In this document: positions 21,144-63,520 of the stretch, one piece after another
Numbering within the stretch: position 1 is the stretch's first letter
How the letters are laid out: each line of letters begins with the position of its first letter
Origin: Candidatus Dadabacteria bacterium
GTDB lineage: Bacteria > Desulfobacterota_D > UBA1144 > Nemesobacterales > Nemesobacteraceae
Length of the DNA: 64,000 nt
Assembly: GCA_022827275.1 (NCBI GenBank)
Contig: JAJDTG010000005.1
Coordinates: 62,001-126,000, forward strand
Direction: 5' to 3'
Program-made: the position numbers and the translations under genes
The notes under the pieces: generated by a model
Told to the model about the DNA's origin: nothing
Database searches by the model: none
What the model saw: only the letters and a program-made list of their open reading frames with translations

Positions 21144-21145
21144 CC

Positions 21146-21697
21146 ATGAGAACGATAGTAGGAATTACGGGAGCTTCCGGAGTCGCTTACGGGGTTGATT
21201 TCCTCAGAAGATGTCCTGATGAGAAATACCTTGTGGCAAGCAAGTGGGGAAAGAGGGTCCTTCACGAGGAACTCGGCCTCAAGGTCGAGGAAATGCGCCC
21301 CTGGGTAACCGATATTTACAGCGATTCTGACCTCGCGTCCCCGTTCTCCTCGGGAAGCAATCATTTCGACTCCATGGTCATAGTTCCCTGTTCGGTTTCC
21401 ACCCTGGCGAAAATCGCAAACGGCATAGCCGACACCCTGATAACGAGAATAGCAGCGGTGGCGCTAAAGGAGAAAAGAAGGCTCATAATTGCCCTGCGCG
21501 AGACGCCGCTTGGCACTATCGCCCTTGAAAACGCGCTTCGGCTCTCCCGCGAGGGAGTGGTGATCGCTCCTATCTCTCCTACTGATTACATGGGGGCCGA
21601 ATCGGTCTCAGACGTGGTGGGCGGTTACGTTGACAAGCTTTTGGGTCTTGTCGGCGTCGATACCGGCAGGGGATGGAAAAGGGAAGAACTGGAGTAG
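21146..21697 (+). CDS. ubiX: UbiX-family flavin prenyltransferase
   Basis: VGITGASGVAYGVDFL, VPCSVSTLAKIANGIADTLITRIAAVALKEKRRLIIALRETPL. Confidence 0.93.
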   Translation: MRTIVGITGASGVAYGVDFLRRCPDEKYLVASKWGKRVLHEELGLKVEEMRPWVTDIYSDSDLASPFSSGSNHFDSMVIVPCSVSTLAKIANGIADTLITRIAAVALKEKRRLIIALRETPLGTIALENALRLSREGVVIAPISPTDYMGAESVSDVVGGYVDKLLGLVGVDTGRGWKREELE

Positions 21698-21706
21698 CTT
21701 TTTCCC

Positions 21707-42224: not shown

Positions 42225-43247
42225 CTAGAGGGGTTTGCGTGTCAGGAAGCAATATAGGGGCGTGAAGATTCCGGTCCTGCCGCCCGCGATGTAGGCGTTG
42301 GCGGTCCGAGCGGTCAGCCTTGCGATTTCCGTAGAGCCTTTCGGGAACACCCCCAGTGTCTCGGCGAGCCTGGATGTCCCGATGAAAGTCTTACGGATCA
42401 GGGAACTGCTGCGTGGGGATTTGTCCAGCGTTCCGTGCCGGGTCTCCATGGGTTTATACCACGGCGTGGTCGAACCGTTCTCCTCGACGGCTCGGTCCAC
42501 CCCCTCGACAACCTGGAATCCCGCGGCCTCAAGCGCCCGGTTCACCTCGCCCGTCGTCGCGATATCCCTGAGCGCAATGGAGTGCACCAATTCCTGCTTG
42601 ATAGCCCGGTGCTGATTGTCGTCGGGATCGAACTTGTCCGTAACGCACATTTCCTGACCCCAGAAGAGGGCTCCGGGTTTCAGCACCCGGTAGATCTCGG
42701 CAAACGCGTCCGCCTTTTCTGGAGCATGACATGTCGATTCGATTGCGTAGCCCCGGTCGAAGGTGTTGTCCGCGATGGCGCTCATGTCCATGAAGCTGCA
42801 CGCGAGGTAGTCGACCATGTGGTCGAGCCCTGCCTCGACGTTCAATGATTTTGCCTTGTCCAGCTGGACTTCACTGTTGTTGACCCCGATTACCCTGACA
42901 CCAGCCTCGCGGACGACGCGGCGCATCGGGCCGCCGACCCCGCAACCGATATCGACCACCGTCATCCCCTTGCGCAGATCCAGCTTGGCAATCATCAGCC
43001 GCTGATGCCGGATTATGGAGTCTTCCACGCTCTCGCGGGGGGACAGCGGCGCGAAGTGAAGGGATTCGCCCCAGCCGAACACCATGAACTCGTTGCATAG
43101 GTCGTAATATTCCTTGACGGTCTGGGTGTGGTCGTAACCTGCCCTCGTACCGGCATCCTCTGCGGCCGCCCTCTCGGTCCATCCATTGAAGTGTTGCACC
43201 CTGCGGGCGACGTCCGACCCGCTGTAGGCGATCTTCAGTCCGTTCAA
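42225..43247 (-). CDS. Sterol C-24 methyltransferase-like (ERG6/SMT family) paralogue A
   Basis: FGWGESLHFAPL, VVDIGCGVGGPMRR, YAIESTCHAPEKADAFAEIYRVLKPGALF. Confidence 0.8.
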   Translation of the reverse strand: MNGLKIAYSGSDVARRVQHFNGWTERAAAEDAGTRAGYDHTQTVKEYYDLCNEFMVFGWGESLHFAPLSPRESVEDSIIRHQRLMIAKLDLRKGMTVVDIGCGVGGPMRRVVREAGVRVIGVNNSEVQLDKAKSLNVEAGLDHMVDYLACSFMDMSAIADNTFDRGYAIESTCHAPEKADAFAEIYRVLKPGALFWGQEMCVTDKFDPDDNQHRAIKQELVHSIALRDIATTGEVNRALEAAGFQVVEGVDRAVEENGSTTPWYKPMETRHGTLDKSPRSSSLIRKTFIGTSRLAETLGVFPKGSTEIARLTARTANAYIAGGRTGIFTPLYCFLTRKPL

Positions 43248-43698: not shown

Positions 43699-44742
43699 AT
43701 GAATCCAAACCCAAACGTGCGCAAGGATGAAGCCTTGCTTTATCCATTTCCTGAGGGCTGGTATTTCGTCGCCAGCCGCAAGATGATTAAAAAAAAGGGA
43801 CTCCTGAAGAGAACCTGGCTCGGAGAACAGGTTGTTGTCTGGTGCAACGGGGAGGGGGAAGTTTGCGTTGCTGAGGCGGTCTGTCCGCATCTTGGAGCCG
43901 ATCTCGGTCCCGAGGTAGGGGGACGGGTGCACGACGGTTGCCTTGTATGTCCTTTTCACGGTTTCCAGTTTGACGTGAGCGGTCAATGCGTGGCGACACC
44001 ATTCGCTCCTCCGCCAAAAACCGCCAAGCTTAAGGTGTTCGAGACACGTGAAATCGAGGGTCTCATCTTTGCATGGTGGGGCAGCGGCGGTCGGGAACCT
44101 CAATGGCACCTGCCCGAAATTTCCACAACTCATACCGACTGGAGCGGGATGGAGTTCTGCCACCTCCGTTTTCCGGGACATCCCCAGGAAACTACTGAGA
44201 ACTCCGTGGATGTTGCACACCTTAACTATGTGCACCACTACAACAGTGTGAACATTGTCGGTTCGATATCAATTGACGGCACCTTGCTCAGAAATTCCTT
44301 CAACTTCAAACGCGGCCTTACGGTTGCCGGCATCAAGCTTTTCGAGTACGACGTTTCTGCGGTCGCCAGCATACACGGGCTTGGCTATTCAATTGTCGAG
44401 GTTCACGAACATTCGATCAATATGGACACCCGCCTGTGGGTGCTTGCAACACCGATTGATGGCAAATTTATTGAAATGACCTTGGTGAGCCAAGTGCGGC
44501 AACTTCGTAATCTGAAGGGAGTGGGCCACGGGCTGCGGCTCCTTCCCCTAGGGCTCAGGACCCGCCTCATGAACAAGGTCCTCATTTCCTCCCAGGAGCA
44601 TGACGTCATGCAGGATGTCGTCATCTGGAGCAATCTGAAACATCGGTCACTTCCGAGGCTTTGCAGTGTTGACGGCGATATCGGGAAGTATCGGCGCTAC
44701 TGCAGGCAGTTCTATCCGGATGGTCAGTATTATAATCCGTAG
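43699..44742 (+). CDS. Rieske [2Fe-2S] non-heme iron oxygenase (cholesterol 7-desaturase / sterol demethylase-like)
   Basis: CPHLGADLGPEVGGRVHDGCLVCPFH Rieske motif; NSVDVAHLNYVHH iron ligands. Confidence 0.85.
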   Translation: MNPNPNVRKDEALLYPFPEGWYFVASRKMIKKKGLLKRTWLGEQVVVWCNGEGEVCVAEAVCPHLGADLGPEVGGRVHDGCLVCPFHGFQFDVSGQCVATPFAPPPKTAKLKVFETREIEGLIFAWWGSGGREPQWHLPEISTTHTDWSGMEFCHLRFPGHPQETTENSVDVAHLNYVHHYNSVNIVGSISIDGTLLRNSFNFKRGLTVAGIKLFEYDVSAVASIHGLGYSIVEVHEHSINMDTRLWVLATPIDGKFIEMTLVSQVRQLRNLKGVGHGLRLLPLGLRTRLMNKVLISSQEHDVMQDVVIWSNLKHRSLPRLCSVDGDIGKYRRYCRQFYPDGQYYNP

Positions 44743-44819: not shown

Positions 44820-47150
44820 CTACGCGGTTGAGCCTCTCAATCGTTCCCTGATCTGCTCGCTGGTTTCCTTGGTCTCGTCAAGCAGCATCAGAAGCGGTGG
44901 AAGGAAGAAAAAATCTGCCAGCAGGGCAATAATTACCGTTATTCCCACCAAAAGACCAAGCACCTGGTTTCCCACCAACCCGGATGCTCCGAACACCATA
45001 AAGCCCAGCCCGAACACTACGGTAGTCGTAAACAGCGCCCTGCCCACAAAGCGAAAAGCTATTTGAACGGACTCCGAAGGCAGTTTCCCCGCCTTTCTGC
45101 TATCCGTGTATTTTGTCATGAAGTGGATGGTGTCGTCCACAATGATGCCGAATGCTATAGCGGTGACGACCGCCGCCGGAACTCCTACATCTCCCACCAG
45201 ATACCCCCACAGTCCCATGGCCATAGCGGCCGGAAGGAAATTGGGGATCAGACTGACCAGCCCCAGGCGTATGCTTCTAAATATGGCGAACAGCAGCAGG
45301 GAAACGATGGCCATCGCCACAAAAGTGCCCTGCAGCATATTTTCAATGTTCCTCTGAATCGAATGAGACCCCACAATCGAAATTCCCGTAGCGCCGGTTT
45401 CCATGCTGGGGGCATTCTGCTGCAGCCACGCGCGTGCACGGTCGTCGAGATTAATCTTCTCCTTGCTGGACATACTCTTCACTGAGACCGTTACGCGTGT
45501 TGATCTCCGGTCATGGTCGATCAGATTGTTAAGGTCGCGGCCTATCGGGAGAGAAAACTCATAAAGCAAGAGATACTGCGCGGCGAGTTCAGGATCGTCG
45601 GGAAGCGCGTAGTAATCCGGGTCATCGCCATGCAGGTTCTTGTTCAGACGCTTCATGATGTCGGCAATTGAGAAGATATGGACAAATTCCGGTTGCTCCC
45701 GGTACCAATCCGCAAACGCTTCGACCTGTTTTAGGTACTCAATGTCCGTGATGGCGCCCTCGCGGCCGGAATCCAGAGAGTACTCATAGGTTTCCACGCC
45801 AGGGAAGTTCTCGCTCAGGAAATCCGCGGACCGCCGGAACTCGTAACTCTCGTCAAGAACCTCAAGCCAGTTCTCCCTAAGTTCGATCTTGGAGATGCCG
45901 GCAACCAGAAAGACAGTCAGAATGCCAAAGAAACAAAGAAGGACCGTACGATAGGAGATGACAAAACGGCTGAGACGATCGAAAAAATCCTGTTTGTCTT
46001 CGCCTATTTTCCGGGGACGAATAGGTAGTATTGACAGGAATGCGGGCAACAGAGTCACCGAAAAGACGAAAGCGCACATGGAACCGAACGCCACGATGTT
46101 ACCCATGACCTTAAAGGGCGGCATATCTACGAAATTCAGGCTCAGAAATCCGATTGCAGTTGTGAACGAGGTAAGGAAAATAGGCCACACGTCCACTCGC
46201 ACGGCATGGATTGCCGCTTCTGTTCTCGTCATGCCCTGGCGTAAGCCCCCGGACATTGCCTCGATAATGTGCACGGAGTGAGCGACGGTCACAGCCATCA
46301 GTACAAACAGTGCGGCACCGCTTTCACCAAACAGCTTTAAGCCTGTCCACCCGGCAAAGCCCAGCGCGGATGGGATGACGGCAACAATCATCAGCACAAT
46401 GGCAAGTGTCCCCCATATCGAACGTATCAGAATCAAGGCGACAAGCAGCATGGTTCCAAGAGCAATGGGCCCAAGGATGGCCGTTTCATCGTCAAGCGCG
46501 TCACCAATGACACGATTGAGGATGAGTCCGCCTAAAAGATGGTAGTCGATGGATGTATATTTCTCCCCGGCGGCGGCAGTAGTTTCATACAGGTAGTCGG
46601 TAACCTCTCGCTTGGCCAATTCCCGATTGTCGTCAGGAAGAGTAATGCTGACAACCAGGCCGGCAACTCGTCCGTCGCGGGAGACGAATCGCCCGGCAAC
46701 TTCCTCAGTGCCGAGTGCGATATCCGTGATTCGTTGTATATCGGTATCGCTCAGGGAACTGGCTTCGTCGATAAGCGGCTCAACAACCAGCTCATCTTCG
46801 AAACCCTCGCTATGTGTGTAGTTCGAGATAGAGTCGACACGGGTGGCGTACGGGGTGCGCCAAAGCTGCTCAGTCAACTCTTCAATGGCGACAAGCCTTT
46901 CCTGTGTGAAAATTGTGCCGTTATGCGGCGCTACGGCAACCAGTACAGCATCGGACAGTGCATATGTCTCTTCAAGCTGTTCCAGCGCTATGAGGTGTGG
47001 GTCGGATTCGCCAAAGTGGTTACGGAAGTCCACGTCCACCACAATCAAACGCGCGGCTCCCGCGGCAAGGGCCAGCACAACAAGCAAAGAGATCAAAATG
47101 GTCAGCCAGCGGCGGGTGACGATCATTGAGATGCAAGATTCTAGGTTCAT
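44820..47150 (-). CDS. RND/MMPL-family transporter (HpnN-like)
   Basis: 776 aa, two 6-TM halves, FGIIVDDTIHFMTKYTDSRK, VTVAHSVHIIEAM. Confidence 0.87.
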   Translation of the reverse strand: MNLESCISMIVTRRWLTILISLLVVLALAAGAARLIVVDVDFRNHFGESDPHLIALEQLEETYALSDAVLVAVAPHNGTIFTQERLVAIEELTEQLWRTPYATRVDSISNYTHSEGFEDELVVEPLIDEASSLSDTDIQRITDIALGTEEVAGRFVSRDGRVAGLVVSITLPDDNRELAKREVTDYLYETTAAAGEKYTSIDYHLLGGLILNRVIGDALDDETAILGPIALGTMLLVALILIRSIWGTLAIVLMIVAVIPSALGFAGWTGLKLFGESGAALFVLMAVTVAHSVHIIEAMSGGLRQGMTRTEAAIHAVRVDVWPIFLTSFTTAIGFLSLNFVDMPPFKVMGNIVAFGSMCAFVFSVTLLPAFLSILPIRPRKIGEDKQDFFDRLSRFVISYRTVLLCFFGILTVFLVAGISKIELRENWLEVLDESYEFRRSADFLSENFPGVETYEYSLDSGREGAITDIEYLKQVEAFADWYREQPEFVHIFSIADIMKRLNKNLHGDDPDYYALPDDPELAAQYLLLYEFSLPIGRDLNNLIDHDRRSTRVTVSVKSMSSKEKINLDDRARAWLQQNAPSMETGATGISIVGSHSIQRNIENMLQGTFVAMAIVSLLLFAIFRSIRLGLVSLIPNFLPAAMAMGLWGYLVGDVGVPAAVVTAIAFGIIVDDTIHFMTKYTDSRKAGKLPSESVQIAFRFVGRALFTTTVVFGLGFMVFGASGLVGNQVLGLLVGITVIIALLADFFFLPPLLMLLDETKETSEQIRERLRGSTA

Positions 47151-48188: not shown

Positions 48189-50414
48189 TTAGGAAGAAGC
48201 AGTTGCCGAATCCTCGCCTTCTGCCGTCTCTTCTGGAATATCAATCACTTGATTAGCTTGGGGGTCAAGCGGCAAGTCAACAATCATATCTGTATATTCG
48301 CCTTCCTCCGTTTCTACGCGAAACTCACCGCCGTGCTGTCGTACTATGTCGTTGGACAGCGATAATCCCAGACCTGTCCCTTTATCCGTGGGTTTCGTTG
48401 TATAGAACGGATTAAAGATACGCTCCAATGCAGATTGGGGAATGCCGGTTCCATTGTCACGAACATGTATCTCAATACGATCACCAACCAGCCGCGTACT
48501 CAAATTAAGCGTCGGTTGATAATCCTTCTTTGACGCATCGTCGGCAGCAGCCAGTTTTTTTCGTTTTTCGTCCGCGGCATAGCAGGCATTGGTTACCAGA
48601 TTTAGGAAAACCCGGCCAATGTCTTGCGGTTGCACGGTGATCTCTCCTATATCCGGCGAATAGTCTTCTTGTATTTCCAGCTGGAAGTCAGGGTCGGCGG
48701 CGCGAGCACTGTGGAACGCAAGCAACGCATGCTCGTTAAGCAATATGCTGAGGTCAGTTGGTTGCCATTCCCCGCCACCACGACCCATCTTGAGCATGTC
48801 TGTTATAATTCGGTTCGCACGAGTTCCATGCTCGTGGATGCGCTTCAGATTTCCTGTCAAATCCTCGACTACTTCCTCGACTAACTCCGGATCGTATTCC
48901 TCTTTTGCGTCCCCGTTAGCCTCCATTTTGGCTACCTCTTCCAGCAGTTCTTCCAGCAGTTCTTGTGAAACCTCTGAGAAGTTCATGATGAAGTTCATGG
49001 GATTTTTGATTTCGTGCGCGACCCCGGCTGTCAACTGGCCAAGCGCGGCAAGCTTCTCCCGCATCACAATCTGGTCCTGAGCCCGTTTCAACTCTTCGTT
49101 AGTATGTGCTAGCTCCTCGTTTTTTTCCTGCAGTTGGTTAGCGAGTGTTTCTACAAGATTAAGGCGCTGTACTTCCAGTGCGTTATATCGGAACACCTCA
49201 AGCGCCTTGGCTAGTTGCGCGATTTCGTCATTACCTCTGGTGTCGACGGTTATTTCCAGGTTTCCATCAGCCATTTCCTGCATTTGACTCGATATCCGTT
49301 CCAGACGCCGAATCAGGCGGCGTTGTACAAACAGCCATCCCAGCAAGATTCCACCACTTATACTGACGATATTGAAAGCCAGCAGGACTTTCGTGCTGGT
49401 AGCAGTTACGGCGGCCGCTTTGCTCGCCATCTCCCCTGCAGCCATGCTTGAATCATTTACAACCCTTTCTACTCGCGCTACGATGTCAATTCCTAAAGCC
49501 TGATTTTTGAGGAGTAGGGCGGATAATTCATCGTCAACTGCAAGTTCCCGGCTGCGCAGGTCGAATCCGTTGTTTTCCCTTCTCCCGAATGAGATCAGGT
49601 CTTCGAAAATCCCAGACAGCTGGTCATGAAGGTCGCTTCCCTCCTGTTCGTATTTCTCAAGCGCATCAAGTGATCGGCTGGTGCTGCCGGCTGCGGCTTC
49701 GAACCGTTCTCGCAATGGCTGAAGCATGGCCGCCTCGGTCACTACAAACGTGGTTGCAAGCAGCTGCGAAGCGACTACAGCCGCTTCACGAAGTTCAAAC
49801 AAGCGGCGATAGATCAGGAATTCCGGTTCGGAGAAATGAACCGAGCGGGGAGATTGCGCTGCATCAAGAGACCGGTGTCCGGTCATTACATAGAACATCT
49901 GATCGTCGATCTCGTTAATTATAATCGGCGTTATTTTACTTTGGATACCCTGAAGCTCGTCTCTAAGATTGAGACTGCTCTCGCGAAGGTCGAAACGTTC
50001 CCTGACAAGCAATTTGATTCGCTCAATGTTCTGGATTATGGCGACCCCGTCAGATTGAATCTGCCGCGCTTGTTCGCTTTCTCCCTGATTTTCCATCATT
50101 GCCGAGAGTTGTGTTTTAAATGCATCCGCCTGCAGGTCGACCGTCTTGGATACGGTCCTGAACTGCTCAGGCGTGCTCGCGGTGAGTCGGGGAGCGGCGG
50201 CTACGAGCATGGCTGTCTGCTGGGCGATTGCAAACGCCGATGTCATCTCGGGTATGTTCTTTTCATTAACGTTTTGCTGAACTTTGCCGATTTGGCTAAG
50301 GAAGAAAAGAGCCATCAAACTGACGATGATGATGAGCACTACAGCACCTGCGTAACTTATATAAAGTTGCGTGGAAATCTGCGTAGAAATTTTGTTCCAG
50401 AGTTTTGAAAGCAT
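48189..50414 (-). CDS. Membrane histidine kinase (periplasmic sensor, HAMP, HisKA, HATPase)
   Basis: 741 aa; LAALGQLTAGVAHEIKNPMNFIMNF, NLVTNACYAADE, VRDNGTGIP, GTGLGLSLSNDIV. Confidence 0.93.
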   Translation of the reverse strand: MLSKLWNKISTQISTQLYISYAGAVVLIIIVSLMALFFLSQIGKVQQNVNEKNIPEMTSAFAIAQQTAMLVAAAPRLTASTPEQFRTVSKTVDLQADAFKTQLSAMMENQGESEQARQIQSDGVAIIQNIERIKLLVRERFDLRESSLNLRDELQGIQSKITPIIINEIDDQMFYVMTGHRSLDAAQSPRSVHFSEPEFLIYRRLFELREAAVVASQLLATTFVVTEAAMLQPLRERFEAAAGSTSRSLDALEKYEQEGSDLHDQLSGIFEDLISFGRRENNGFDLRSRELAVDDELSALLLKNQALGIDIVARVERVVNDSSMAAGEMASKAAAVTATSTKVLLAFNIVSISGGILLGWLFVQRRLIRRLERISSQMQEMADGNLEITVDTRGNDEIAQLAKALEVFRYNALEVQRLNLVETLANQLQEKNEELAHTNEELKRAQDQIVMREKLAALGQLTAGVAHEIKNPMNFIMNFSEVSQELLEELLEEVAKMEANGDAKEEYDPELVEEVVEDLTGNLKRIHEHGTRANRIITDMLKMGRGGGEWQPTDLSILLNEHALLAFHSARAADPDFQLEIQEDYSPDIGEITVQPQDIGRVFLNLVTNACYAADEKRKKLAAADDASKKDYQPTLNLSTRLVGDRIEIHVRDNGTGIPQSALERIFNPFYTTKPTDKGTGLGLSLSNDIVRQHGGEFRVETEEGEYTDMIVDLPLDPQANQVIDIPEETAEGEDSATASS

Positions 50415-50454
50415 TCCGCTTATCTCAATGTCTTTTGCATATCCAAAACGTCGG

Positions 50455-51654
50455 TCAGTATCGTCGTGTTAGAGTCGTGAGAGGCGTATACTGGCCATCA
50501 GGACCAATAATCGTCAAGAACACGCTGTCTGAGCCTTGATTGTCATTCTTGCTATATCGCAAGGTGAAGCCGTCCAAATTAATGTTGTTGCCAGTCCGCA
50601 GCACCGCGTCGATGCAATCGCGGTTAACCTGTTTGCCGCAATTGTCTACTACATAGATAGCCAAACGCCCTGCTAAATATCCTTCATACGATATAAATCC
50701 GGGTTTTGCCGCCGGATCGTACGCCTTGAGCGCAGCACGATAGGAAGCGGAAGCGGGCACCGTGTTTCCGGTTGGAAAAGGAACCACCTGCGTAACTAGA
50801 ACTCCGGCTCCTTGATCACCCAGTTCGCTTGCCAAGGCATTGCTGCCTACGAAAGAAAGTGTCATAAAAATGGAATTCATGCCGATGTGGCGTGCCCACT
50901 TAATAAATGTCGCAGTTGGCTTGTAGGGACCAATAATGATCACAGCTTCCGGTCCGGTGGCACGTAAATCAAGAAGCGCCGTCTTTATCGCGACAGTATT
51001 GCGAGAAAATATCCCCGTTCCGATAGTAGAAAGTTTGCGACGTTCAAGAGCAAGAAGTATCCCTTGCAACCCGGCGCGACCGAATGAATCATCCTGATAG
51101 AGAATGGCAATGCGATTAATTCCGAGATCAGTCGTCAATCGTTCTACCATCTCCTCGGTTTCTTGATAATACGAAGCCCGAAGGTTGATTACTGTCCGGC
51201 GTGCATTGTCACGCAGGAATTCTGCACCGGTCATAGGAGCTATGTAAGGTACATCGTGTTCCTCCGCGACAGGTACCGCAGCTTTGGAGGTAGGAGTGCC
51301 AACTGCGCCGATGAGTGCGAAAACCCTCTCACCAATCAGTTGCTGCGTATTTACGATTGCCGCCTCCGGTTCGTATGCGTCATCCAATGATCGCAGTTCC
51401 AGGCGACGTCCGTTAACGCCACCCCGGTCATTAACCTCTTTAAACGCGGCAAGAATGCCGACTTGCATGCCTTTACCAAGCTCGCTAGCTGGCCCACTGA
51501 AGGCAGCGGACTGACCAAAGACAATACGATCACTGTATACGCCCGGCACGGCGCGTGGTTGTTGTTGGGCTTCCCCTGACGCTACGCTTGTCAGTATTGC
51601 AACTATTGAAGCGGCAATCACTTTTTTGAGAGACAGTCTGCTTAATAACCGCAT
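50455..51654 (-). CDS. Periplasmic branched-chain-amino-acid-type (Peripla_BP_6) binding protein
   Basis: Signal peptide; IVFGQSAAFSGPASELGKGMQVGILAAFKEVNDRGGVNGRRLEL. Confidence 0.9.
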   Translation of the reverse strand: MRLLSRLSLKKVIAASIVAILTSVASGEAQQQPRAVPGVYSDRIVFGQSAAFSGPASELGKGMQVGILAAFKEVNDRGGVNGRRLELRSLDDAYEPEAAIVNTQQLIGERVFALIGAVGTPTSKAAVPVAEEHDVPYIAPMTGAEFLRDNARRTVINLRASYYQETEEMVERLTTDLGINRIAILYQDDSFGRAGLQGILLALERRKLSTIGTGIFSRNTVAIKTALLDLRATGPEAVIIIGPYKPTATFIKWARHIGMNSIFMTLSFVGSNALASELGDQGAGVLVTQVVPFPTGNTVPASASYRAALKAYDPAAKPGFISYEGYLAGRLAIYVVDNCGKQVNRDCIDAVLRTGNNINLDGFTLRYSKNDNQGSDSVFLTIIGPDGQYTPLTTLTRRY

Positions 51655-51664
51655 TTCATTTTTG

Positions 51665-52099
51665 CTAAATTTTCTTGATCATAGTCAGATGATTACGATC
51701 ACTGTTGCGTTGATAGCGCAGCTCTGTCATCAGTTGCTTCGCCAGCATTATTCCTGCTCCACCAATACGGCGGTCTTCAAGCGAACTTTCGACATCAAGC
51801 TCCGGCGCGTCTTCTAGCGGATTAAAGGGATATCCATCATCCAGTATCTCAACAGTCATGGTTTCACCTTCTCTCGAGAAGATGATTTCCACTTCATGTT
51901 CCTGATCATCATCATGCGCATAGCTTGCCACGTTGGTGAAGATCTCCTCCAGGGAGAGTTGCGTGGGGAACAACGCTTCAGAGGGGAGACCCTGCTGTTC
52001 AAAAAATTCCTCCAGCGCTACCGCAATCGTTTGGATTTCTTCCATTCGATTGGGAACTATCAACGTACGTGAAGCTTGCATCTTACCGTCTTTGCCCAT
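51665..52099 (-). CDS. RsbW-like anti-sigma factor kinase (HATPase_c_2)
   Basis: LEEIFTNVASYAHDDDQEHEVEI, EILDDGYPFNPLEDAPE, GGAGIMLAKQLMTEL; TAATG overlap with upstream gene. Confidence 0.88.
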   Translation of the reverse strand: MGKDGKMQASRTLIVPNRMEEIQTIAVALEEFFEQQGLPSEALFPTQLSLEEIFTNVASYAHDDDQEHEVEIIFSREGETMTVEILDDGYPFNPLEDAPELDVESSLEDRRIGGAGIMLAKQLMTELRYQRNSDRNHLTMIKKI

Positions 52100-53256
52100 T
52101 ATGTGGTTCGCAGAACAAGACAGGTTATATCGTCAGATTGCGGATTTTCACCAGCGAACTCTTTGACTGTATCGAACACCTCATTCGTAATTTCCTCGGC
52201 GTCTTTGAAAGTACCGCTTTGGAAAATTTCGCAAAACCTGTCCATTTCGAATAATTCCTTATCTTCTTTTTCAGCTTCCACTACTCCGTCAGTGTAAAAC
52301 ACGATCATGGAACTCGGCTCAAGGGTGATTGTATTCTCCTGATATTTGAAATCCGGCATTACGCCCAGAGCAACTCCCCCCGTTGACTCCAATAGCTCGG
52401 TTGTCAGGTTCTGTTTGACAATGACCGGCGGATTATGTCCGCCGTTTGCATAAACGAATTCTCTGGTTCTAGGATCGTAAATGCCATATAACAGGGTTAC
52501 GAATGTCATGGCATCGTTGTCCTCAGACAACATTGTATTTACCTGTTCCAGAACAGCGGCCGGAGAGGAGGAAATTGCCGCGCAAGCTTTCAGCAGTGTA
52601 CGACTGGCCATCATGAACATTGCCGCGGGCACTCCTTTGCCCGACACATCAGCTATTGCAACGCCAACCCGGCCATCACTAAATTCATAAATATCGAAAA
52701 AGTCGCCGCCTACGGAAAGGGCTGGAACCATACTCGCGTACAGATCAAATGACTCAGAAGTCGGAAAGGATTTTGGAAGAATGTCCTGCTGCATCGTCCT
52801 TGCCACATCGAGCTCGTTCTGGAGGGTTACAAGCTTGTCGCGCGCACTCAGTGCTTTACGCCACATAGCAAGGTTTTCAATCGTACGTTCGATTGTAGTC
52901 TTGAGGTCCGTGAAATCTATCGGCTTGGTAACAAAGTCAAATGCCCCACGGTTCATGGCAGTCCGTATGTTCTCCATATCTCCGTATGCGGAGACCATTA
53001 CGGCACGAACATCAGGGTCTACGTCCGGTATCTGTGACAATAATGTCAGCCCGTCCATAACGGGCATGTTGATATCAGACAGCACAATATCGAACCCGTT
53101 GTCTTTGCGTAGAAGTTCGAGGGCTTCCACACCGTTGTGCGCAAATTCGAATTCGTAACGACCGCGGCGAACTTCACGCCGCATTCTCTGCAGCATGAGC
53201 TGTTCTAAATCTACTTCATCATCGACAACCAGAATTCGGATTTTGCCGTCGTCCAT
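52099..53256 (-). CDS. Response regulator with SpoIIE/PP2C phosphatase output (RsbU-like)
   Basis: REC domain ILVVDDEVDLEQL..DIVLSDINMPVMDG; PP2C SVGGDFFDIYEFSDGRVGVAIADVSGKGVPAAMFM. Confidence 0.93.
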   Translation of the reverse strand: MDDGKIRILVVDDEVDLEQLMLQRMRREVRRGRYEFEFAHNGVEALELLRKDNGFDIVLSDINMPVMDGLTLLSQIPDVDPDVRAVMVSAYGDMENIRTAMNRGAFDFVTKPIDFTDLKTTIERTIENLAMWRKALSARDKLVTLQNELDVARTMQQDILPKSFPTSESFDLYASMVPALSVGGDFFDIYEFSDGRVGVAIADVSGKGVPAAMFMMASRTLLKACAAISSSPAAVLEQVNTMLSEDNDAMTFVTLLYGIYDPRTREFVYANGGHNPPVIVKQNLTTELLESTGGVALGVMPDFKYQENTITLEPSSMIVFYTDGVVEAEKEDKELFEMDRFCEIFQSGTFKDAEEITNEVFDTVKEFAGENPQSDDITCLVLRTT

Positions 53257-54445: not shown

Positions 54446-55801
54446 CTATGCCTTTCTGAGACGCCAGCCGTACATCATGCGTCCGTAGAAGTTAAACCAC
54501 TTCCTCGCTTCGGAATCCTGAAACGGATAGTCTGCTCCAAGTTGTCTCGCCGTAACGAGGCCGGAGACGAAACATGTCTCTTGACTGTTGATCAGAGTGT
54601 GGGCGCCACAGTGCCAGGTTCTTTTCTTTCCCTGAACGAAACCAAACAGATTAATCAGAAAAGCTGTGTGGAACACATCGTGTACGATATGCTGAAACCA
54701 CCATTTCTTTACGATTTTTTCTTCGTTGATACGACTGATCGGGTTGTAGGTTACAAGACATGGCTTGTCCGATTTTTTTGCCCAGGGTTGCTGGTTGTGC
54801 ATGATGTAGGTGATTTCATAGTTGTCTGGTCTCACACCGTACTGTTCAATGTAGTTGCTCCGGGTCTCGAGGGGTTTGACCTCGTTATCCGGGAGGACCG
54901 AGGCATCCGAATGGACAACCGTATGGTTGTGCAATTCGCTCTCGTAACGAACTGAAGAGAGAAGGAAGCTCTCCAAGAAGGTCGGATTGTCGAGAATCAT
55001 CAATGTCTGGTTCGCGTTGCAGGCAAAGACCACATCGTCAAATGTCTCCGTGGTTCCGTTTTCATCTTCAATGACCACGCCGGATGCGCGCCGATATACT
55101 TTTCTCACGGGCCTGTTGAGGTATATCTTGTCCCGAAATCCGGCTGACATTTCCTCGTATATACGCCGCGTACCCCTATCCCATGTTTGCATTGGTGTTG
55201 CGGTTTCTATATCAAAGAACTCCAGATACCGGGCAAACAGGGACGCAGGCATGTCGAACACATTTGTTGCCATCAGGAAATTGACGAACATCGGCTTCAG
55301 AACCTTGTACCTGAAGTCTCCTGAGAACCTGCCCCAGTTGAGAACCGTACCCATGCTGATGTAGTTAAATGGATTGAGAGCATTGAGCAGTAGGGATCTG
55401 GAGTGGTTAAGTCGACCGAACCACTTGAGACGCTTAAGGAGTTTCTGGAACTTGGCAATTTCCGGTTGCAGCTGACTCCTGATATCTGAGTCGAAATCGT
55501 GTGCATAAATTTCGCCACGGTACTTTACGCTGTAGTTGAATTTGGTGTCTAACAGATCAATGCCGTGTTGCTGCAGGAACAGCACCATATGATGATATGC
55601 CGATGGAATGCATGCGGTAACGGAAATATCGAACGGGATCGAGGTTCCATCTTCTTGAGGCATGTCGGCTGTTATGGCATTGCCGCCGAGCTGAGACTGG
55701 GCTTCAAAAATTCGAAACTCAAACAGATCAGGGTGTCGGTCCAGAGCCCAAGCCACCCCCAACCCGGATACTCCACCACCGATAATGGCAACCTTTTTCA
55801 T
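54446..55801 (-). CDS. FAD-dependent (amine oxidase/desaturase-like) oxidoreductase
   Basis: VAIIGGGVSGLGVAWAL Rossmann motif, FEAQSQLGGNAIT, C-term TCFVSGLVTARQLGADYPF. Confidence 0.87.
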   Translation of the reverse strand: MKKVAIIGGGVSGLGVAWALDRHPDLFEFRIFEAQSQLGGNAITADMPQEDGTSIPFDISVTACIPSAYHHMVLFLQQHGIDLLDTKFNYSVKYRGEIYAHDFDSDIRSQLQPEIAKFQKLLKRLKWFGRLNHSRSLLLNALNPFNYISMGTVLNWGRFSGDFRYKVLKPMFVNFLMATNVFDMPASLFARYLEFFDIETATPMQTWDRGTRRIYEEMSAGFRDKIYLNRPVRKVYRRASGVVIEDENGTTETFDDVVFACNANQTLMILDNPTFLESFLLSSVRYESELHNHTVVHSDASVLPDNEVKPLETRSNYIEQYGVRPDNYEITYIMHNQQPWAKKSDKPCLVTYNPISRINEEKIVKKWWFQHIVHDVFHTAFLINLFGFVQGKKRTWHCGAHTLINSQETCFVSGLVTARQLGADYPFQDSEARKWFNFYGRMMYGWRLRKA

Positions 55802-56079: not shown

Positions 56080-58098
56080 TCAGACGGGCAGTTCGCGTTT
56101 CTGTTCGGCGATATGAAATTTAAGCTTCTTGTCCGGCTTCATTGATGGAAACGCGGTGATTCCAAGTTTATAGTCTTCGGGGTATACGCGAAGAGTAAAG
56201 TAATGCGCTATGATCAGCAGGTTGACAGCCATATGAAGTGTCATCCATCGGGCGCCAAGGCACGTGTGCGGGCCCAGTCCGTATGGGGCGTATCCGGGGT
56301 TTCTATGCTCATTGCGAGGCGGAAGGTAGCGGTCGATATCAAATGAAAGAGGGTCCGGGAAGGAATCTTCCATATAGTGCGGGGCGGTTTGTGCAATGTT
56401 TATTCTGGACCCCCGCGGTATTTCGTAGCCCTCGATCGTGAACGTGTTCACGACGTCGCGCATAGTCATTGGGACAATCGGGTACACCCGAAGGCATTCA
56501 TTGATGAAGCGATCGGTGACTTCTATGCTGGAGGGAGTGAAGTCTTTTCCGGTTGGATCACCGTTTGAAAACAGTGCGTCGGCTTCACTTCGAATTTTCT
56601 CGTAAAGCTCAGGGTGTGACGCCATTGCATAAAGGGCGAAGTTAAAGCCGTCACCCAGATACATGCTGGCAAGCACCACTGCCGATAGAGCGAAACTCAG
56701 ATTCGACTCGGGCATCAACAGCGGGTAGTTCGCATTGAGGCTTAGCAGATCATCCACAAAGTTTCGCGGACAACCGGCCCGTTGGGCTGATGTATGGACA
56801 CTTTGTACCCGCTCCATCAAAACGCCTATTGCCTTGGCCCTGCGTTTCATTCCCGGTGTTTTCAGCATGAATTTTGGCAGGATGTGTAAGAGATGGGTGC
56901 TGAGTGCCCGCTCCTTGTAGGCAATTATATCGTCCATGATATCCTGCGTATCAATACTCATGGATAGAGATGACATCTGAGCGTTAATCATTTTTCGGCA
57001 CAGATCCCTTGCGGGATAACTTTCGCCCACTTTCCAATTTGCCATGTATTCGCGAGCCTTACTGAAGACCACATCGATCTGTCCTTCCAGTCTCCCGCGG
57101 GAGTAGGCTGGAGTCATGGTTTTTCGATACCGGAAATGGTCTGCGCCATCCAGGGCAGGCAATATGCCTACCGCCCCATACACTTTCTCAAAGTCGCTAA
57201 AGAGATTCTTGGATGTCAGATACTTCCGTCCGTGTCGACGTGCCCAGCGGTTTATTTCTGGTCCGGAAAGAAAGATATTTGGCTTTGAAAAAGGAGGAGC
57301 GATTTCAAAGACCGGGCCGTACTGCTCTGTCAAATCTGCAAAAAGCGCTGGAAGATTTCCAGTGCGAGCAAGTGGGTTGAACAGTAGCCGAGGAAGTGAA
57401 ACGCGCGGGATTTTCTTGCTAACATGAGAAGTTGCAAGCAGCGGATTATTGATGTTTTCTTTGACCGCGTCCGCCATTGAACGGCCGATTAGGTCCATCC
57501 TGCAGATAAGCTCGATCCGCTCTTCCGCCTTTTTGTCGAGCTTAAACATTAGGGGAAAGATATCGCATGTCTCGATCAGGCAAATGATGATAATATCTCG
57601 CGGATCCGGAATGTCGTCTGAAAAGATGTCTTTGCCGATTCTGATTCTGATGAACTGACTTAAACTCGCATCTTCATCGTCGCCGTTTACATCCGCGTAC
57701 AGTTTGCCAGCTGCCACTGTCCAGAAATCACCCCGGTGATGCTCCAGAATTCCCATGTTAACCAGATTTTCTAATGTCAAATCAGTGATCGTTTCCGCAT
57801 GGCTGATGAGCTTTTCAATCCAGTATTGGGCGTTGTGCTTAACTGGCTCATCGACGATTTCCTTGAGAATTATGTCCAAGCTTGGGTTGCCCGTTTCTGT
57901 TGGATCCAGGAGGAGAAGAGACTCGACGTCCGTGTCGATACGAGAAAGCAGAGAGAGTTCTGCAAGTGCCGCACCGATAATAACGCAGTTCATTTTGTGG
58001 GCGGCTATTTGGTAAAAGTAGCCGCTCTCCTCGTCGAGGAGCATCAATATGAACTCGTCAAGCAAGCTCAGTGGCTGGCTCTCAATAGGATCATTCAT
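56080..58098 (-). CDS. GPP34 (GOLPH3-like) domain - cytochrome P450 fusion protein
   Basis: 672 aa; N-term SLLDEFILMLLDEESGYFYQ..AALAELSLLSRID..LVNMGILEHHRG (GPP34); C-term NECLRVYP (ExxR) and YAPYGLGPHTCLGARW heme-Cys loop. Confidence 0.85.
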   Translation of the reverse strand: MNDPIESQPLSLLDEFILMLLDEESGYFYQIAAHKMNCVIIGAALAELSLLSRIDTDVESLLLLDPTETGNPSLDIILKEIVDEPVKHNAQYWIEKLISHAETITDLTLENLVNMGILEHHRGDFWTVAAGKLYADVNGDDEDASLSQFIRIRIGKDIFSDDIPDPRDIIIICLIETCDIFPLMFKLDKKAEERIELICRMDLIGRSMADAVKENINNPLLATSHVSKKIPRVSLPRLLFNPLARTGNLPALFADLTEQYGPVFEIAPPFSKPNIFLSGPEINRWARRHGRKYLTSKNLFSDFEKVYGAVGILPALDGADHFRYRKTMTPAYSRGRLEGQIDVVFSKAREYMANWKVGESYPARDLCRKMINAQMSSLSMSIDTQDIMDDIIAYKERALSTHLLHILPKFMLKTPGMKRRAKAIGVLMERVQSVHTSAQRAGCPRNFVDDLLSLNANYPLLMPESNLSFALSAVVLASMYLGDGFNFALYAMASHPELYEKIRSEADALFSNGDPTGKDFTPSSIEVTDRFINECLRVYPIVPMTMRDVVNTFTIEGYEIPRGSRINIAQTAPHYMEDSFPDPLSFDIDRYLPPRNEHRNPGYAPYGLGPHTCLGARWMTLHMAVNLLIIAHYFTLRVYPEDYKLGITAFPSMKPDKKLKFHIAEQKRELPV

Positions 58099-58451: not shown

Positions 58452-59591
58452 ATGATTGAATGGCTTGGTATTAGCCACCTTTTTGAGCTTTCCCAGGCGG
58501 AAGCGATTGCGGGGTTTTTCACCCCGCTGGTGATTTTTGCCGTGTTTTTCCTGGCGCAGATTATACTGCCCGGAAGATGGGTTCCCGGCTACGTTATTAA
58601 TCCGGAGACCGGCGAGCCCCGCAAGTATAGGCTGAACGGTCTTTTGGTGTTCGCGGTTGCGCTGATCGTCTGGGCTTTCGAGCTCACCGGGATGCCGCGT
58701 GAGTGGTTCTACCGGTCCTCGATCTATGCCGTGGTCGGCGGAACAGTCTTCACCGCAATCTTTGCGGTCATAGCGGTCTTCAGTCAGCCGCAAGGCAAGA
58801 TAAAGAACCCGCTTCTGGCGCTTTGGGACGGTCGGACGCAGGAGCTGTCGTTCTTCAATGACCGCTTCGATGTGAAGATGTATTTCTATGTCGTCGGTGG
58901 GACGATGCTGGCGCTCAACGCCTTGTCCGGAGCCGCGTACAACTACGAACTCTTTGGCGAGAACTACAATCCGGGCGTTTTCCTGTATGCGGCGTTCTTC
59001 GCATTCTACATACTGGATTACTTTATCTTCGAGCGCGTCCAGCTATATACCTACGATCTGATCCATGAGGGCATCGGCTTCAAAATGTTCTGGGGAGGCC
59101 TCGTGATCTACGGGTGGCTCTTCATCCTCCCGTTGTGGGGCATGGCCGCTTACCCGTCCCCCGGATTCTCATCGGGATGGACATATTTCTGGCTAATCGG
59201 AACGCCTTTGCTGTTCCTGTTCGGGTGGGGCATCTCGCGCGGCGCCAACATGCAGAAATACACATTCAAGCGATGGCCCGACCGCAAGTTTCTCGGGATC
59301 ATCGAGCCTGAGTACATCCAGGCCGGAGACCGCAAGATCCTGTGCAGTGGCTTCTGGGGTGCCGCTCGCCACTTCAACTACCTGGGCGAAGGCTTCCTTG
59401 GTCTTTCAATTGCCTTGGCATTCGGCTACTTCACTAATCTCTGGGCGTGGACCTACTTTATCTTCGTCGTAACGTTTTTTACCTTCCGTCAACGTTTTGA
59501 CGATGCATACTGTGCCGAGAAATACGGCGCCGAAAAGTGGGCAGAGTATCAGGCACGGGTGAAATACCGGATTTTTCCCGGCATTTACTGA
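58452..59591 (+). CDS. ERG4/ERG24-family sterol reductase (C-14, C-7 or C-24(28) type)
   Basis: 379 aa polytopic; C-term ILCSGFWGAARHFNYLGEGFLGLSIALAFGY...FRQRFDDAYCAEKYGAEKWAEYQARVKYRIFPGIY matches the ERG4/ERG24 signature end. Confidence 0.82.
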   Translation: MIEWLGISHLFELSQAEAIAGFFTPLVIFAVFFLAQIILPGRWVPGYVINPETGEPRKYRLNGLLVFAVALIVWAFELTGMPREWFYRSSIYAVVGGTVFTAIFAVIAVFSQPQGKIKNPLLALWDGRTQELSFFNDRFDVKMYFYVVGGTMLALNALSGAAYNYELFGENYNPGVFLYAAFFAFYILDYFIFERVQLYTYDLIHEGIGFKMFWGGLVIYGWLFILPLWGMAAYPSPGFSSGWTYFWLIGTPLLFLFGWGISRGANMQKYTFKRWPDRKFLGIIEPEYIQAGDRKILCSGFWGAARHFNYLGEGFLGLSIALAFGYFTNLWAWTYFIFVVTFFTFRQRFDDAYCAEKYGAEKWAEYQARVKYRIFPGIY

Positions 59592-59675: not shown

Positions 59676-60704
59676 TCACCCCGGTTTGCGCGCCTTGTGG
59701 TAGTACATGGGCGTAACAATTCCCAGGCGTCCTGCGGCCAAGAGGCTGTCGGCCACGACATTGATAATTTTCCGTGCCTCGGACGACCCCTTGGGTACGG
59801 CGCGTACGCCTTCCAGAACGGGGAGAACCGCCGAAGCGATTTTTCGGCCAAGGGCCGTTCTCGAGAGACTCCTCAGATCCAGGTTGCCCCCTTCCAGCGG
59901 TTGATACCACGGCGTCTTGGGGTTGGCGTCAAGAGCGCGGTCACGCGCCTCGACAAGTTCGAAACCGACTGCCCGCAGGCTGTCGTCTACCTCCGTGAAT
60001 GAAGCGATTTCCGGAAGAGCGGAGACGTATTCGTTTATTTCCTTGAGTTCCCGGTGCTTAGGATTTCCGCCGTCGTAAAGCGGGGTCATGCACACATCGT
60101 AGCCGACGAAGATCGCACCGGGGCGCAATACACGGAATATCTCGGCAAAGGCTGCGGTCTTATCCGGCGCATGACACAGGGCCTCGATATGGTAGGCCGC
60201 GTCGAAGCTTCCGTCTTCCGCCGGTATATTCAGGAAATCGCCGTGCAGGACGCTGCAGAGATGGTCCAGGCCAGCCTCGCTGTTATACACAGAGCACTTC
60301 CCGAGCTGATATTCGTTGATGTTTAGGCCCACGATCGAAGCGCCGAATTTTCCTGCGAGGGAGCGTTGGGGTCCGCCCACGCCGCATCCGACATCAAGCA
60401 CCTTCATGCCCGGCCTCAATCCAATGGCTTCGCCCAGAAAATACTCATGGTTGGCAATGGATTCCTCGAAAGACACCCCCGGATCCATCAGTGCGAAGTG
60501 AATCGACCGCCCCCATCCACGCTCGCAAAAGTCGGTAATGAGGTTGTAAAATGCCGTCACCGTGCTGGCGTACTCTTCCTTGCTCATCCCCTGGCTTCTG
60601 CGGTACTTCAACAGCCTTTCCATAATATCATCCGGCTGAACTGCATTTGAAACTGCGTTATGGGAGTCATCTGCCACTTGTGTTTCCCTCCGTGGAATCT
60701 TCAT
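59676..60704 (-). CDS. Sterol C-24 methyltransferase-like (ERG6/SMT family) paralogue B
   Basis: FCERGWGRSIHFALM, VLDVGCGVGGPQRSLAGKFG, YHIEALCHAPDKTAAFAEIFRVLRPGAIF. Confidence 0.83.
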   Translation of the reverse strand: MKIPRRETQVADDSHNAVSNAVQPDDIMERLLKYRRSQGMSKEEYASTVTAFYNLITDFCERGWGRSIHFALMDPGVSFEESIANHEYFLGEAIGLRPGMKVLDVGCGVGGPQRSLAGKFGASIVGLNINEYQLGKCSVYNSEAGLDHLCSVLHGDFLNIPAEDGSFDAAYHIEALCHAPDKTAAFAEIFRVLRPGAIFVGYDVCMTPLYDGGNPKHRELKEINEYVSALPEIASFTEVDDSLRAVGFELVEARDRALDANPKTPWYQPLEGGNLDLRSLSRTALGRKIASAVLPVLEGVRAVPKGSSEARKIINVVADSLLAAGRLGIVTPMYYHKARKPG

Positions 60705-60921: not shown

Positions 60922-62268
60922 ATGTCGTTTGAAAAGACCCAGCGCCGGATTCTCAAAAATCCGTTCACCTCACCCGGTGAGACCGGCAAGAGCGTTCCGG
61001 TTTCAATCCTCTCAGCGATTTTAGCGGTGGTGCTGGGGATTATTGTTTCGGTGTTCCCGACCGTAGCGTACCCGGCCGGCTTCACCGACGAGGTTGATAT
61101 CTCCGGGCGCCTCTCGACTGAGACTTGGCTGTATCCCCAGAGCGCCGCGTATCCCGACCAGCGTTCGTATGCCGGCGGGCTTGCCCTGGAGACAACGTTC
61201 TATGTTGAGAGCGAGGAAGGCACAAGCATAACGGTTACTCCCTTTTTGCGGTACGATGCCGGGGACCCGGATCGCACGTACGGTGATTTCCGTGAGGCCT
61301 ATCTGCTGATGTACGGCGATATTGGCGACGGTGAATGGGAATTGCGTCTGGGCATCGATCGGGTGTTTTGGGGCGTCACGGAGTTGCGTTCCCTGGTGGA
61401 TATCATCAATCAGACCGATGTTATTGAACACCCGAACGAAAAGATAAAGATGGGTCAGCCGATGGCCCATCTCACTTGGTCGGGTGACTGGGGAGCACTG
61501 GAATTTTTCGCGACGACATGGCACCGTGCGCGCACCTACCCGGGCCCGCGTGGTCGCCAGCGGTATGAGTTCATTGTGGACCAGGATATGATTTCATACG
61601 AATCCGGTGCGAAAAAGTGGAATATTGATCTCGCCAGCCGGTACAGCGGCTTATTCGGGCCGCTCGAAATTGGTCTAAGCGTGTTTGACGGTACGAACCG
61701 AGAGCCCACTCTCTTGCCGATATTTCTCGACTCCGGATTGGTCCTGGCTCCACATTACGAGAAGATTCGCCAATTCGGTGTGGATGCACAGCTTAACAGG
61801 GGCTCTTTGCTGCTCAAGCTGGAAGCGATCTACCGCGCCGGCGCGAGGAACAGCAGGTACATTCAACACCTCAATACCTTAGAGGAAGAGGACTATGCGG
61901 CTTTTATCTTGGGTAGCGAGTACACGCTCTATTCCGTATTGGGTTCGAACTCTGATCTGGTCCTGTTTGCCGAATGGGCTTACGATGGACGTGGGCGGTG
62001 GGCAACCAATGCATTCGAGAACGACCTGTTCATTGCCGCACGTCTCGGGTTGAACGATCCGCATGGCACCGAATTTGTCGTCAGTGTTTTAGGTTCCCTC
62101 AACAAGAGCAGTCGCGTCCTCGCAGGCGAGTTCAAGCGTCGCCTTTCTTCGGACAACTGGCTTCTGCATATTGAGACCTCAGTTTTTCTGGATATCGACG
62201 AAGACGACTTCATATACTACGTGCGGCGCGACAGCTACGTGAAGATCAATCTGGCCTACAGTTTCTGA
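60922..62268 (+). CDS. Outer membrane beta-barrel protein (DUF1302/porin-like)
   Basis: N-terminal signal region, repeated amphipathic beta strands (YGDFREAYLLMYGDIGDGEWELRLGIDRVFWG), terminal aromatic KINLAYSF. Confidence 0.8.
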   Translation: MSFEKTQRRILKNPFTSPGETGKSVPVSILSAILAVVLGIIVSVFPTVAYPAGFTDEVDISGRLSTETWLYPQSAAYPDQRSYAGGLALETTFYVESEEGTSITVTPFLRYDAGDPDRTYGDFREAYLLMYGDIGDGEWELRLGIDRVFWGVTELRSLVDIINQTDVIEHPNEKIKMGQPMAHLTWSGDWGALEFFATTWHRARTYPGPRGRQRYEFIVDQDMISYESGAKKWNIDLASRYSGLFGPLEIGLSVFDGTNREPTLLPIFLDSGLVLAPHYEKIRQFGVDAQLNRGSLLLKLEAIYRAGARNSRYIQHLNTLEEEDYAAFILGSEYTLYSVLGSNSDLVLFAEWAYDGRGRWATNAFENDLFIAARLGLNDPHGTEFVVSVLGSLNKSSRVLAGEFKRRLSSDNWLLHIETSVFLDIDEDDFIYYVRRDSYVKINLAYSF

Positions 62269-62518: not shown

Positions 62519-63520
62519 GTGGGGATTAGCTTCCATAACCCAATTTCGAAAGCGGTTCGGCCGGAGGACACGGCGGAGACTCTGTCTGAGTACCGCAGAA
62601 GCCAGGGGCGGGGCAAGGAAGAATACGCCCGCATGGTAACGGCGTTTTACGACCTCATTACCGACTTTTACGAGTATGGATGGGGGCAGTCATTTCACTT
62701 CGCGCCGATGAAGGTGGGGGAGTCTTTCGAGGAAGCCATCGTCGGCCATGAATATTTTCTGGGCGAAGCCATTGGATTGAGGCCGGGCATGAAGGTGCTT
62801 GATGTCGGATGCGGCGTGGGCGGACCCCAGCGCTTTCTCGCAGGAAAGTTCGGCGCTTCGATCGTGGGCCTAAACATCAACGAATATCAGCTCGGGAAGT
62901 GCTCTGTGTATAACAGCAAGGCTGGCCTGGACCATCTCTGCAGCGTCCTGCACGGCGATTTCCTGAATATACCGGCGGAAGACGGGAGTTTCGACGCGGC
63001 TTACCATATCGAGGCAATGCCTCATGCACCGGATAAAACCGCCGCTTATGCCGAAATATTCCGCGTATTGCGCCCCGGTGCGGTCTTCGCAGGCTACGAC
63101 TGGTGCATGACTCCGCTTTACGACGGCGCGAACCCCGAGCATCGGGAACTCAAGACAGGAATCGAATACGGCAACGCTCTTCCGGAAATCGCTTCATTCA
63201 CGGAGGTAAACGACAGCCTGCGGTCGGTCGGTTTCGAACTTGTCGAGGCGCATGACCGCGCCTTGGACGCCAACCCCAAGACGCCGTGGTATCAATCGCT
63301 TGAAGGCAATGGCCTGAAGCTCAGGAGTTTCCCGAGAACGTCCCTTGGCCGCAGAGTCACCTCGGCGGCCCTGCGCGTTCTGGAAAGCGTACGCGCCGTA
63401 CCCAGGGGATCGTTCGAGGTGCAGAAGATTCTCAATATCGCGGCCGACAGCTGCGTGGCCTCAGGACGTCTTGGGATTTTTACGCCCATGTACTACCACA
63501 AGGCGCGCAAACCGGGGTGA
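62519..63520 (+). CDS. Sterol C-24 methyltransferase-like (ERG6/SMT family) paralogue C
   Basis: FYEYGWGQSFHFAPM (canonical SMT region I), VLDVGCGVGGPQRFLAGKFG, YHIEAMPHAPDK; GTG start. Confidence 0.85.
   Translation: MGISFHNPISKAVRPEDTAETLSEYRRSQGRGKEEYARMVTAFYDLITDFYEYGWGQSFHFAPMKVGESFEEAIVGHEYFLGEAIGLRPGMKVLDVGCGVGGPQRFLAGKFGASIVGLNINEYQLGKCSVYNSKAGLDHLCSVLHGDFLNIPAEDGSFDAAYHIEAMPHAPDKTAAYAEIFRVLRPGAVFAGYDWCMTPLYDGANPEHRELKTGIEYGNALPEIASFTEVNDSLRSVGFELVEAHDRALDANPKTPWYQSLEGNGLKLRSFPRTSLGRRVTSAALRVLESVRAVPRGSFEVQKILNIAADSCVASGRLGIFTPMYYHKARKPG

Follow-up and report, generated by a model that had tools for sequence, protein, structure and literature searches.

In GOLPH3, residues W81, R90, R171 and R174 bind PI4P (PMC4414131), and among bacterial proteins with a GPP34 domain, those of the Streptomyces SCO4440 type have been linked to the formation of wall-deficient cells, with no P450 part reported (PMC12402492). 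On the side of bacterial sterol chemistry, bacterial sterol methyltransferases (SMTs) recovered from demosponge metagenomes have been shown to alkylate sterols in vitro (PMC10070321), and clusters of ERG24, CYP51 and LSS are widespread in Ircinia symbionts (PMC9531527). Term searches of the main article texts returned neither GPP34 nor GOLPH3 in PMC9531527 and no P450 in PMC10070321. Consistent with the initial annotation of the gene described below, neither sequence and fold searches of the PDB nor the literature yielded a characterised enzyme, or any description, of a GPP34-P450 fusion. This fusion is a real and conserved architecture and, as far as we have searched, one that has gone undescribed.

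The gene lies in a 64,000-nucleotide stretch of a Candidatus Dadabacteria contig (hereafter the window) and forms a single unbroken frame with an ATG start (Table 1). Both domains score above their Pfam cut-offs, with 88 bits against 29.1 for GPP34 and 133 bits against 22.8 for the P450. An AlphaFold model of the GPP34 part alone (pLDDT 86.7, pTM 0.85) matched no PDB entries at E≤1e-3 other than GOLPH3/Vps74, of which it hit eight chains (best E 9e-9, TM 0.74), and a fold search of viral proteins with the same model gave no match. The model of the whole fusion (pLDDT 73.9, with low confidence at residues ~297–319, 398–414 and in the haem loop, 599–615) retrieved P450s with Foldseek, the top match being Methylococcus CYP51 (E 2.5e-14, TM 0.77 by target length). 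Thus, both Pfam and structure prediction bear out the N-terminal GPP34 fold and the P450 that had been proposed from the sequence. No further GPP34 or P450 was found in the organism's own genome, which is 95.7% complete.

Table 1. Features of the fusion gene and of its neighbourhood, in window coordinates
Feature	Position	Strand	Evidence
GPP34-cytochrome P450 fusion protein, 672 aa	56080..58098	-	single ORF, Pfam GPP34 12-214 + p450 244-651, 40 conserved loci
GPP34 (GOLPH3/Vps74-fold) domain, residues 12-214	57457..58065	-	Pfam PF05719 E 1.1e-24; AlphaFold/PDB match
Cytochrome P450 domain, residues 244-651	56146..57369	-	Pfam PF00067 E 1.4e-38; AlphaFold/Foldseek to CYP51, other P450s
Haem-binding motif APYGLGPHTCLG, residues 604-615, haem Cys613	56254..56289	-	invariant core in 30 sequences
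Non-canonical I-helix ASMYLGD, residues 477-483	56650..56670	-	29/29 aligned window-type proteins
Third sterol-methyltransferase-like protein (Sterol_MT_C)	42225..43247	-	PF08498 E 3.4e-13
Rieske oxygenase, KshA/SdmA type	43699..44742	+	PF19298 KshA_C E 4.5e-25; PDB 3-ketosteroid 9alpha-hydroxylase E 1.5e-22
MMPL/RND transporter, HpnN/BstA-like	44820..47150	-	PF03176 E 1.7e-35; NCBIfam HpnN, BstA weak, below cut-off
FAD amine-oxidase-like protein, downstream of fusion	54446..55801	-	PF01593 E 5e-16; best PDB match amine oxidase LkcE
ERG4/ERG24-type sterol reductase, divergent from fusion	58452..59591	+	PF01222 E 8e-32; PDB 4quv E 8e-32
Sterol-methyltransferase-like protein (Sterol_MT_C)	59676..60704	-	PF08498 E 6e-14
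Putative outer-membrane protein, weak DUF1302	60922..62268	+	PF06980 E 0.0018, below cut-off
Sterol-methyltransferase-like protein (Sterol_MT_C), contains YEYGWGQSFHF	62519..63520	+	PF08498 E 2.8e-20

One scan of GTDB-based contigs gave 40 loci, every one with a relative of the fusion; contig ends cut L035, L039 and L041, and L034 and L037 contain a frame break. The fused frame recurs in these 40 loci from at least eight bacterial groups (56–88% identity; labelled Dadabacteria, Chloroflexi/SAR202, Binatia, Gemmatimonadota, Acidimicrobiia, Poribacteria, Latescibacterota, alpha- and gammaproteobacteria), which rules out an artefact of assembly. One of them, L006, is labelled Poribacteria and is 77% identical to the window protein; it may be a misplaced Dadabacteria contig. 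Between close relatives, dN/dS is about 0.15–0.28 in the GPP34 part and 0.16–0.49 in the P450, with higher values in the linker, and both domains are under purifying selection. A fusion created by a frameshift or by assembly, which the initial annotation had named as one of the findings that would overturn it, is accordingly rejected, given 40 separate contigs with the same frame and selection on both domains.

Among 58 genomes of the window's phylum, window-type fusions were confined to its own genus, where 9 of 14 genomes carry the full-length protein and two more carry fragments at contig ends. The other families of the phylum have stand-alone GPP34 and stand-alone P450 proteins, and no link of the stand-alone GPP34 with a P450 was seen in these other Dadabacteria. 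In L053–L058 their stand-alone GPP34 gene adjoins a STAS-type gene of about 110 aa (confirmed by Pfam in L053 and L058, the two scanned), hinting at a regulatory partner. In samples of 398 Actinomycetota and 399 Pseudomonadota genomes, the full-length fusion was found at E≤1e-40 in the seed genome only, with one unfused P450 in addition in the Pseudomonadota; the fusion as a general trait of either group is rejected by these samples. No plasmid-borne copy of the fusion was found; the search gave one P450, from Planktothrix, that is unfused. The bin names RHO, COS, IRC, SB066x and jk18x presumably derive from sponge studies. Six carrier metagenome-assembled genomes (MAGs; MPMM, MPND, MPMJ, MPMR, MPMT and MPNE) are symbiont bins of the sponge Aplysina aerophoba (PMC5649159). 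Judged by these relatives, the window's own organism would likewise live in a sponge.

Window-type fusions (subfamily A) form one clade in the P450 tree. A paralogous subfamily, B, occurs in Gemmatimonadota and Chloroflexota in up to several copies per genome; its members (L074–L076, L079–L084, L087, L106 and L107, mostly with a canonical I-helix) resemble the window type in domain order and length and are about 30–37% identical to it in both domains. Several B fusions adjoin an acyltransferase-3 type gene (L080, L106 and L107 were scanned), and because subfamily B sits in such other contexts, the joining of GPP34 to a P450 is not by itself a steroid-specific trait. Among unfused P450s, the nearest that turned up were from Chloroflexota, about 460 aa long and 26–33% identical. 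Two further unfused P450s of the B group (L103:4797–6218 and L104:3029–4450) look like secondary losses of GPP34, because they nest beside a B fusion and their frames begin inside the last GPP34 helix; tblastn found no GPP34 gene upstream of either. Rooted on unfused P450s, the P450 tree requires that the fusion was gained once and lost once. Stand-alone Gemmatimonadota and Dadabacteria proteins branch next to a B fusion in the GPP34 tree, within the B group as it is drawn, a topology that fits both a single fusion followed by release and several fusions and cannot tell them apart. Within A, the tree groups Dadabacteria near Gemmatimonadota, alpha- and gammaproteobacteria, which suggests horizontal transfer of A fusions between phyla.

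Profile alignment of the GPP34 part to GOLPH3 places I41, E102 and T105 of the window protein at the positions of R90, R171 and R174, respectively. At the R90 position, A fusions have V, I or A, B fusions A, and stand-alone GPP34 proteins A or G, and at the R171 position most of the GPP34 domains compared (A, B and stand-alone) have E or D. The R174 position holds I, V or T in A, whereas most proteins of B and of the stand-alone type have Arg or Lys there. An alignment gap makes the assignment of the W81 position ambiguous. Because the basic PI4P pocket of GOLPH3 is thus absent from window-type proteins, the phosphoinositide binding raised by the initial annotation is not supported. Its broader suggestion, that the GPP34 part brings the P450 to a membrane or offers it a lipid substrate, may hold and agrees with the steroid gene context.

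In the P450 domain, APYGLGPHTCLG follows the haem-Cys pattern FxxGxxxCxG with Tyr in place of the usual Phe; Y606, G607, G609, H611, C613 and G615 are invariant in the 30 sequences aligned, as are E534 and R537 of the helix K ExxR motif. Aligned with the canonical AGLDT, the I-helix has a one-residue deletion at the acid and Tyr480 in place of Thr, followed by the invariant Asp483. Because of these two changes, the usual proton-relay residues are absent. ASxYLGD or a close variant occurs in 29 of 29 aligned window-type proteins, and YMGD in three more A relatives, so the acid-alcohol pair [AG]Gx[DE]T of canonical P450 monooxygenases is missing throughout the window type. The description of the domain as a full-length P450 hence stands as regards fold, haem-Cys motif and ExxR but not as regards the acid-alcohol pair. 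The D-T pair is retained in 11 of 12 B fusions and in most of the near unfused P450s, mostly as AGLDT, and is missing too in the distant unfused P450s L110 and L111. Judged from these alignments, the window-type P450 is a derived form. Membership of CYP51 is rejected, since ASMYLGD stands where the GxHTS-type motif of the CYP51 I-helix would be, and CYP51 as the nearest structure carries little weight because identity is 17–20% and CYP3A and CYP184 score about equally.

We then considered the genes around the fusion (Table 1). In the PDB, two neighbours have a steroid enzyme as their best relative, KshA for the Rieske protein and the delta-14 sterol reductase 4quv for the ERG4/ERG24-type protein, and three window proteins exceed the Sterol_MT_C (PF08498) cut-off. 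In NCBIfam, the SMT-like proteins match nothing closer than general methyltransferases, below cut-off, and the flavin oxidase is no steroid enzyme by sequence. The SMT-like genes at 59676–60704 (-) and 62519–63520 (+) are closely similar and on opposite strands, likely a local duplication; the putative outer-membrane protein gene between them is conserved in related Dadabacteria loci. The third methyltransferase, the Rieske oxygenase and the MMPL transporter lie 9–14 kb from the fusion. Between the two steroid gene groups, 48189–53256 (-) encodes a histidine kinase, a periplasmic binding protein, a HATPase-type protein and a PP2C/response-regulator protein, in an order shared by the Dadabacteria loci L002–L005 and L020. 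Elsewhere in the genus, an ERG4/ERG24-type reductase gene lies directly beside an unfused P450 gene (L061:908–3392), and the genes downstream of this pair match in length those at window positions 20301–24567.

Across the 40 loci, whose counts are not independent because several Chloroflexi loci are near-duplicates, genes near the fusion include an SMT in 28, a Rieske oxygenase in 28, a flavin oxidase in 26 and an MMPL transporter in 22; ERG4 (10) and LolA-like genes (6) are rarer. Sterol_MT_C is itself rare, with none in 14 control genomes and 0–3 copies per carrier genome. In 13 of 23 carrier genomes it is found at a distance of no more than about 2.5 kb from the fusion, against about 0.07 expected by chance, and in 8 of those 13 it is the sole copy in the genome (distances were taken from contig coordinates, a shared contig being inferred from matching coordinates and locus maps).

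The oxidosqualene cyclase of a de novo ERG24-CYP51-LSS pathway was not found: a search for squalene/oxidosqualene cyclases (PF13243) returned none in the window's own genome (95.7% complete) and none over cut-off in 16 of the 22 other carriers. As the carrier MAGs are incomplete, this absence is weak for any single genome and stronger as a pattern, and as such it points to sterols from outside. The remaining six carriers have a squalene/oxidosqualene-type cyclase away from the fusion, so some of them may make their own polycyclic substrate.

The genome context, with Sterol_MT_C proteins, a KshA-type Rieske oxygenase, a flavin oxidase, an MMPL transporter and a sterol reductase nearby, argues for steroid chemistry. 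On balance, we consider it probable that the fusion is a membrane-associated, steroid-tailoring haem enzyme of sponge-associated bacteria, which acts on imported sterols and is docked by its GPP34 part to the membrane or to partners. The sterols that it alters are probably not made by the bacterium itself and could originate in the host sponge, in its food or in other symbionts, with the MMPL and outer-membrane proteins taking them up or moving them. Stepwise changes might then comprise Rieske hydroxylation, C-24 methylation, double-bond reduction and flavin oxidation, with the P450 domain carrying out one oxidative or rearranging step. By analogy with GOLPH3, which holds enzyme tails at the membrane, GPP34 would serve to dock the P450, itself soluble, at the inner membrane or on membrane proteins that act as partners, through contacts outside the PI4P pocket. 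Because Tyr480 replaces the Thr and the acidic residue is lost, our reasoned guess is that dioxygen activation would be substrate-assisted, or that a (hydro)peroxide would be used instead of ordinary monooxygenation. In a more far-reaching form, offered tentatively and with some doubt, the window type would be a new P450 lineage that has spread horizontally among sponge-associated bacteria of several phyla, held by a GOLPH3-fold tether to an inner-membrane sterol-modifying complex with which symbionts that make no sterols reshape the sponge's own; its haem chemistry, which dispenses with the acid-alcohol pair, might then not be that of a monooxygenase.

The same set of genes could also modify a non-sterol membrane lipid, such as a methyl-branched or furan fatty acid, a hopanoid or a carotenoid, if acyl chains or other isoprenoids are the substrates of the SMT-like methyltransferases, the flavin oxidase and the Rieske enzyme, with the P450 serving as a peroxygenase or hydroxylase of the fatty-acid type. 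SMT-like proteins could indeed methylate another isoprenoid or lipid; those in the window also match CMAS/cyclopropane families, the flavin oxidase is of the general amine-oxidase type, most carriers are without a sterol cyclase, and the P450 has a weak match to the CYP152 peroxygenase model (E 3e-4). However, a methyltransferase fold in common accounts for the CMAS matches, the match to CYP152 lies far under its cut-off, and Sterol_MT_C, KshA_C and a relative of the delta-14 sterol reductase are together hard to explain without a steroid; we regard this alternative as unlikely. Compatible with the steroid reading would be a haem domain that acts as a peroxide isomerase or dehydratase, like CYP74 or prostacyclin synthase, and not as an oxygenase, on a sterol or lipid hydroperoxide supplied by the Rieske or flavin enzyme. 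That the I-helix deletion and the Thr-to-Tyr change occur in all window-type proteins, whereas the paralogues keep the D-T pair, is in line with such an activity, but the haem-Cys loop has normal spacing and no CYP74-type insertion, and some P450s without the Thr, such as EryF, are true monooxygenases. We rate an isomerase or dehydratase as unlikely.

As for the fusion itself, the confirmed GOLPH3 fold would allow the GPP34 part to use the GOLPH3 pocket for binding phosphoinositides or further anionic head groups and so bring the P450 to the membrane. We find this improbable, because a hydrophobic residue, an acidic one and, third, a hydrophobic residue or Thr take the places of the three pocket arginines in the window type, which has lost even the basic R174 position kept in most stand-alone and B-type domains. 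That two genes were joined by chance or in assembly, with no joint function, has next to no probability: related genomes do hold stand-alone GPP34 and P450 genes, but the architecture is shared by loci of many groups and by a paralogous subfamily, selection acts on both parts, and the rooted P450 tree needs only the single gain and loss. Overall, a docked, steroid-tailoring enzyme is the reading that we prefer; what is shown comprises the architecture, the missing motifs and the genes nearby, and the rest is inferred.

If this reading is true, it provides a concrete biochemical setting for a bacterial GPP34 domain, bacterial GOLPH3-like proteins having hardly been studied. It also bears on the makers of the unusual side-chain-alkylated, oxidised sponge sterols behind the 24-isopropylcholestane biomarker debate. 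Further, subfamilies A and B constitute a natural pair of P450s in the same fusion, one without and one with the acid-alcohol pair.

Compared with GOLPH3 and Vps74, with which its GPP34 part has the fold and the Pfam family (PF05719) in common, the protein described here is bacterial, is fused to a P450 and is without the basic residues of the PI4P pocket. The SCO4440-type GOLPH3-like proteins of Streptomyces are, as here, bacterial GPP34-domain proteins (PMC12402492). Subfamily B of Gemmatimonadota and Chloroflexota, unlike the window type, has the D-T pair in 11 of 12 members and other gene neighbours. CYP51 sterol 14alpha-demethylase is the nearest solved P450 by both sequence and fold, and the Methylococcus CYP51-ferredoxin fusion is likewise a bacterial P450 with an extra fused domain and a role in sterol chemistry; the window protein differs from CYP51 in its low identity, in its I-helix and in having an N-terminal GPP34 domain instead of a ferredoxin. 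Finally, the ERG24-CYP51-LSS clusters (PMC9531527) and the SMT clusters (PMC10070321) are sponge-associated, occur in many phyla and show signs of horizontal transfer, and they have the sterol reductase and the SMT in common with our loci, in which, mostly without a cyclase, the P450 is a GPP34 fusion accompanied by a KshA-type Rieske oxygenase and a flavin oxidase.
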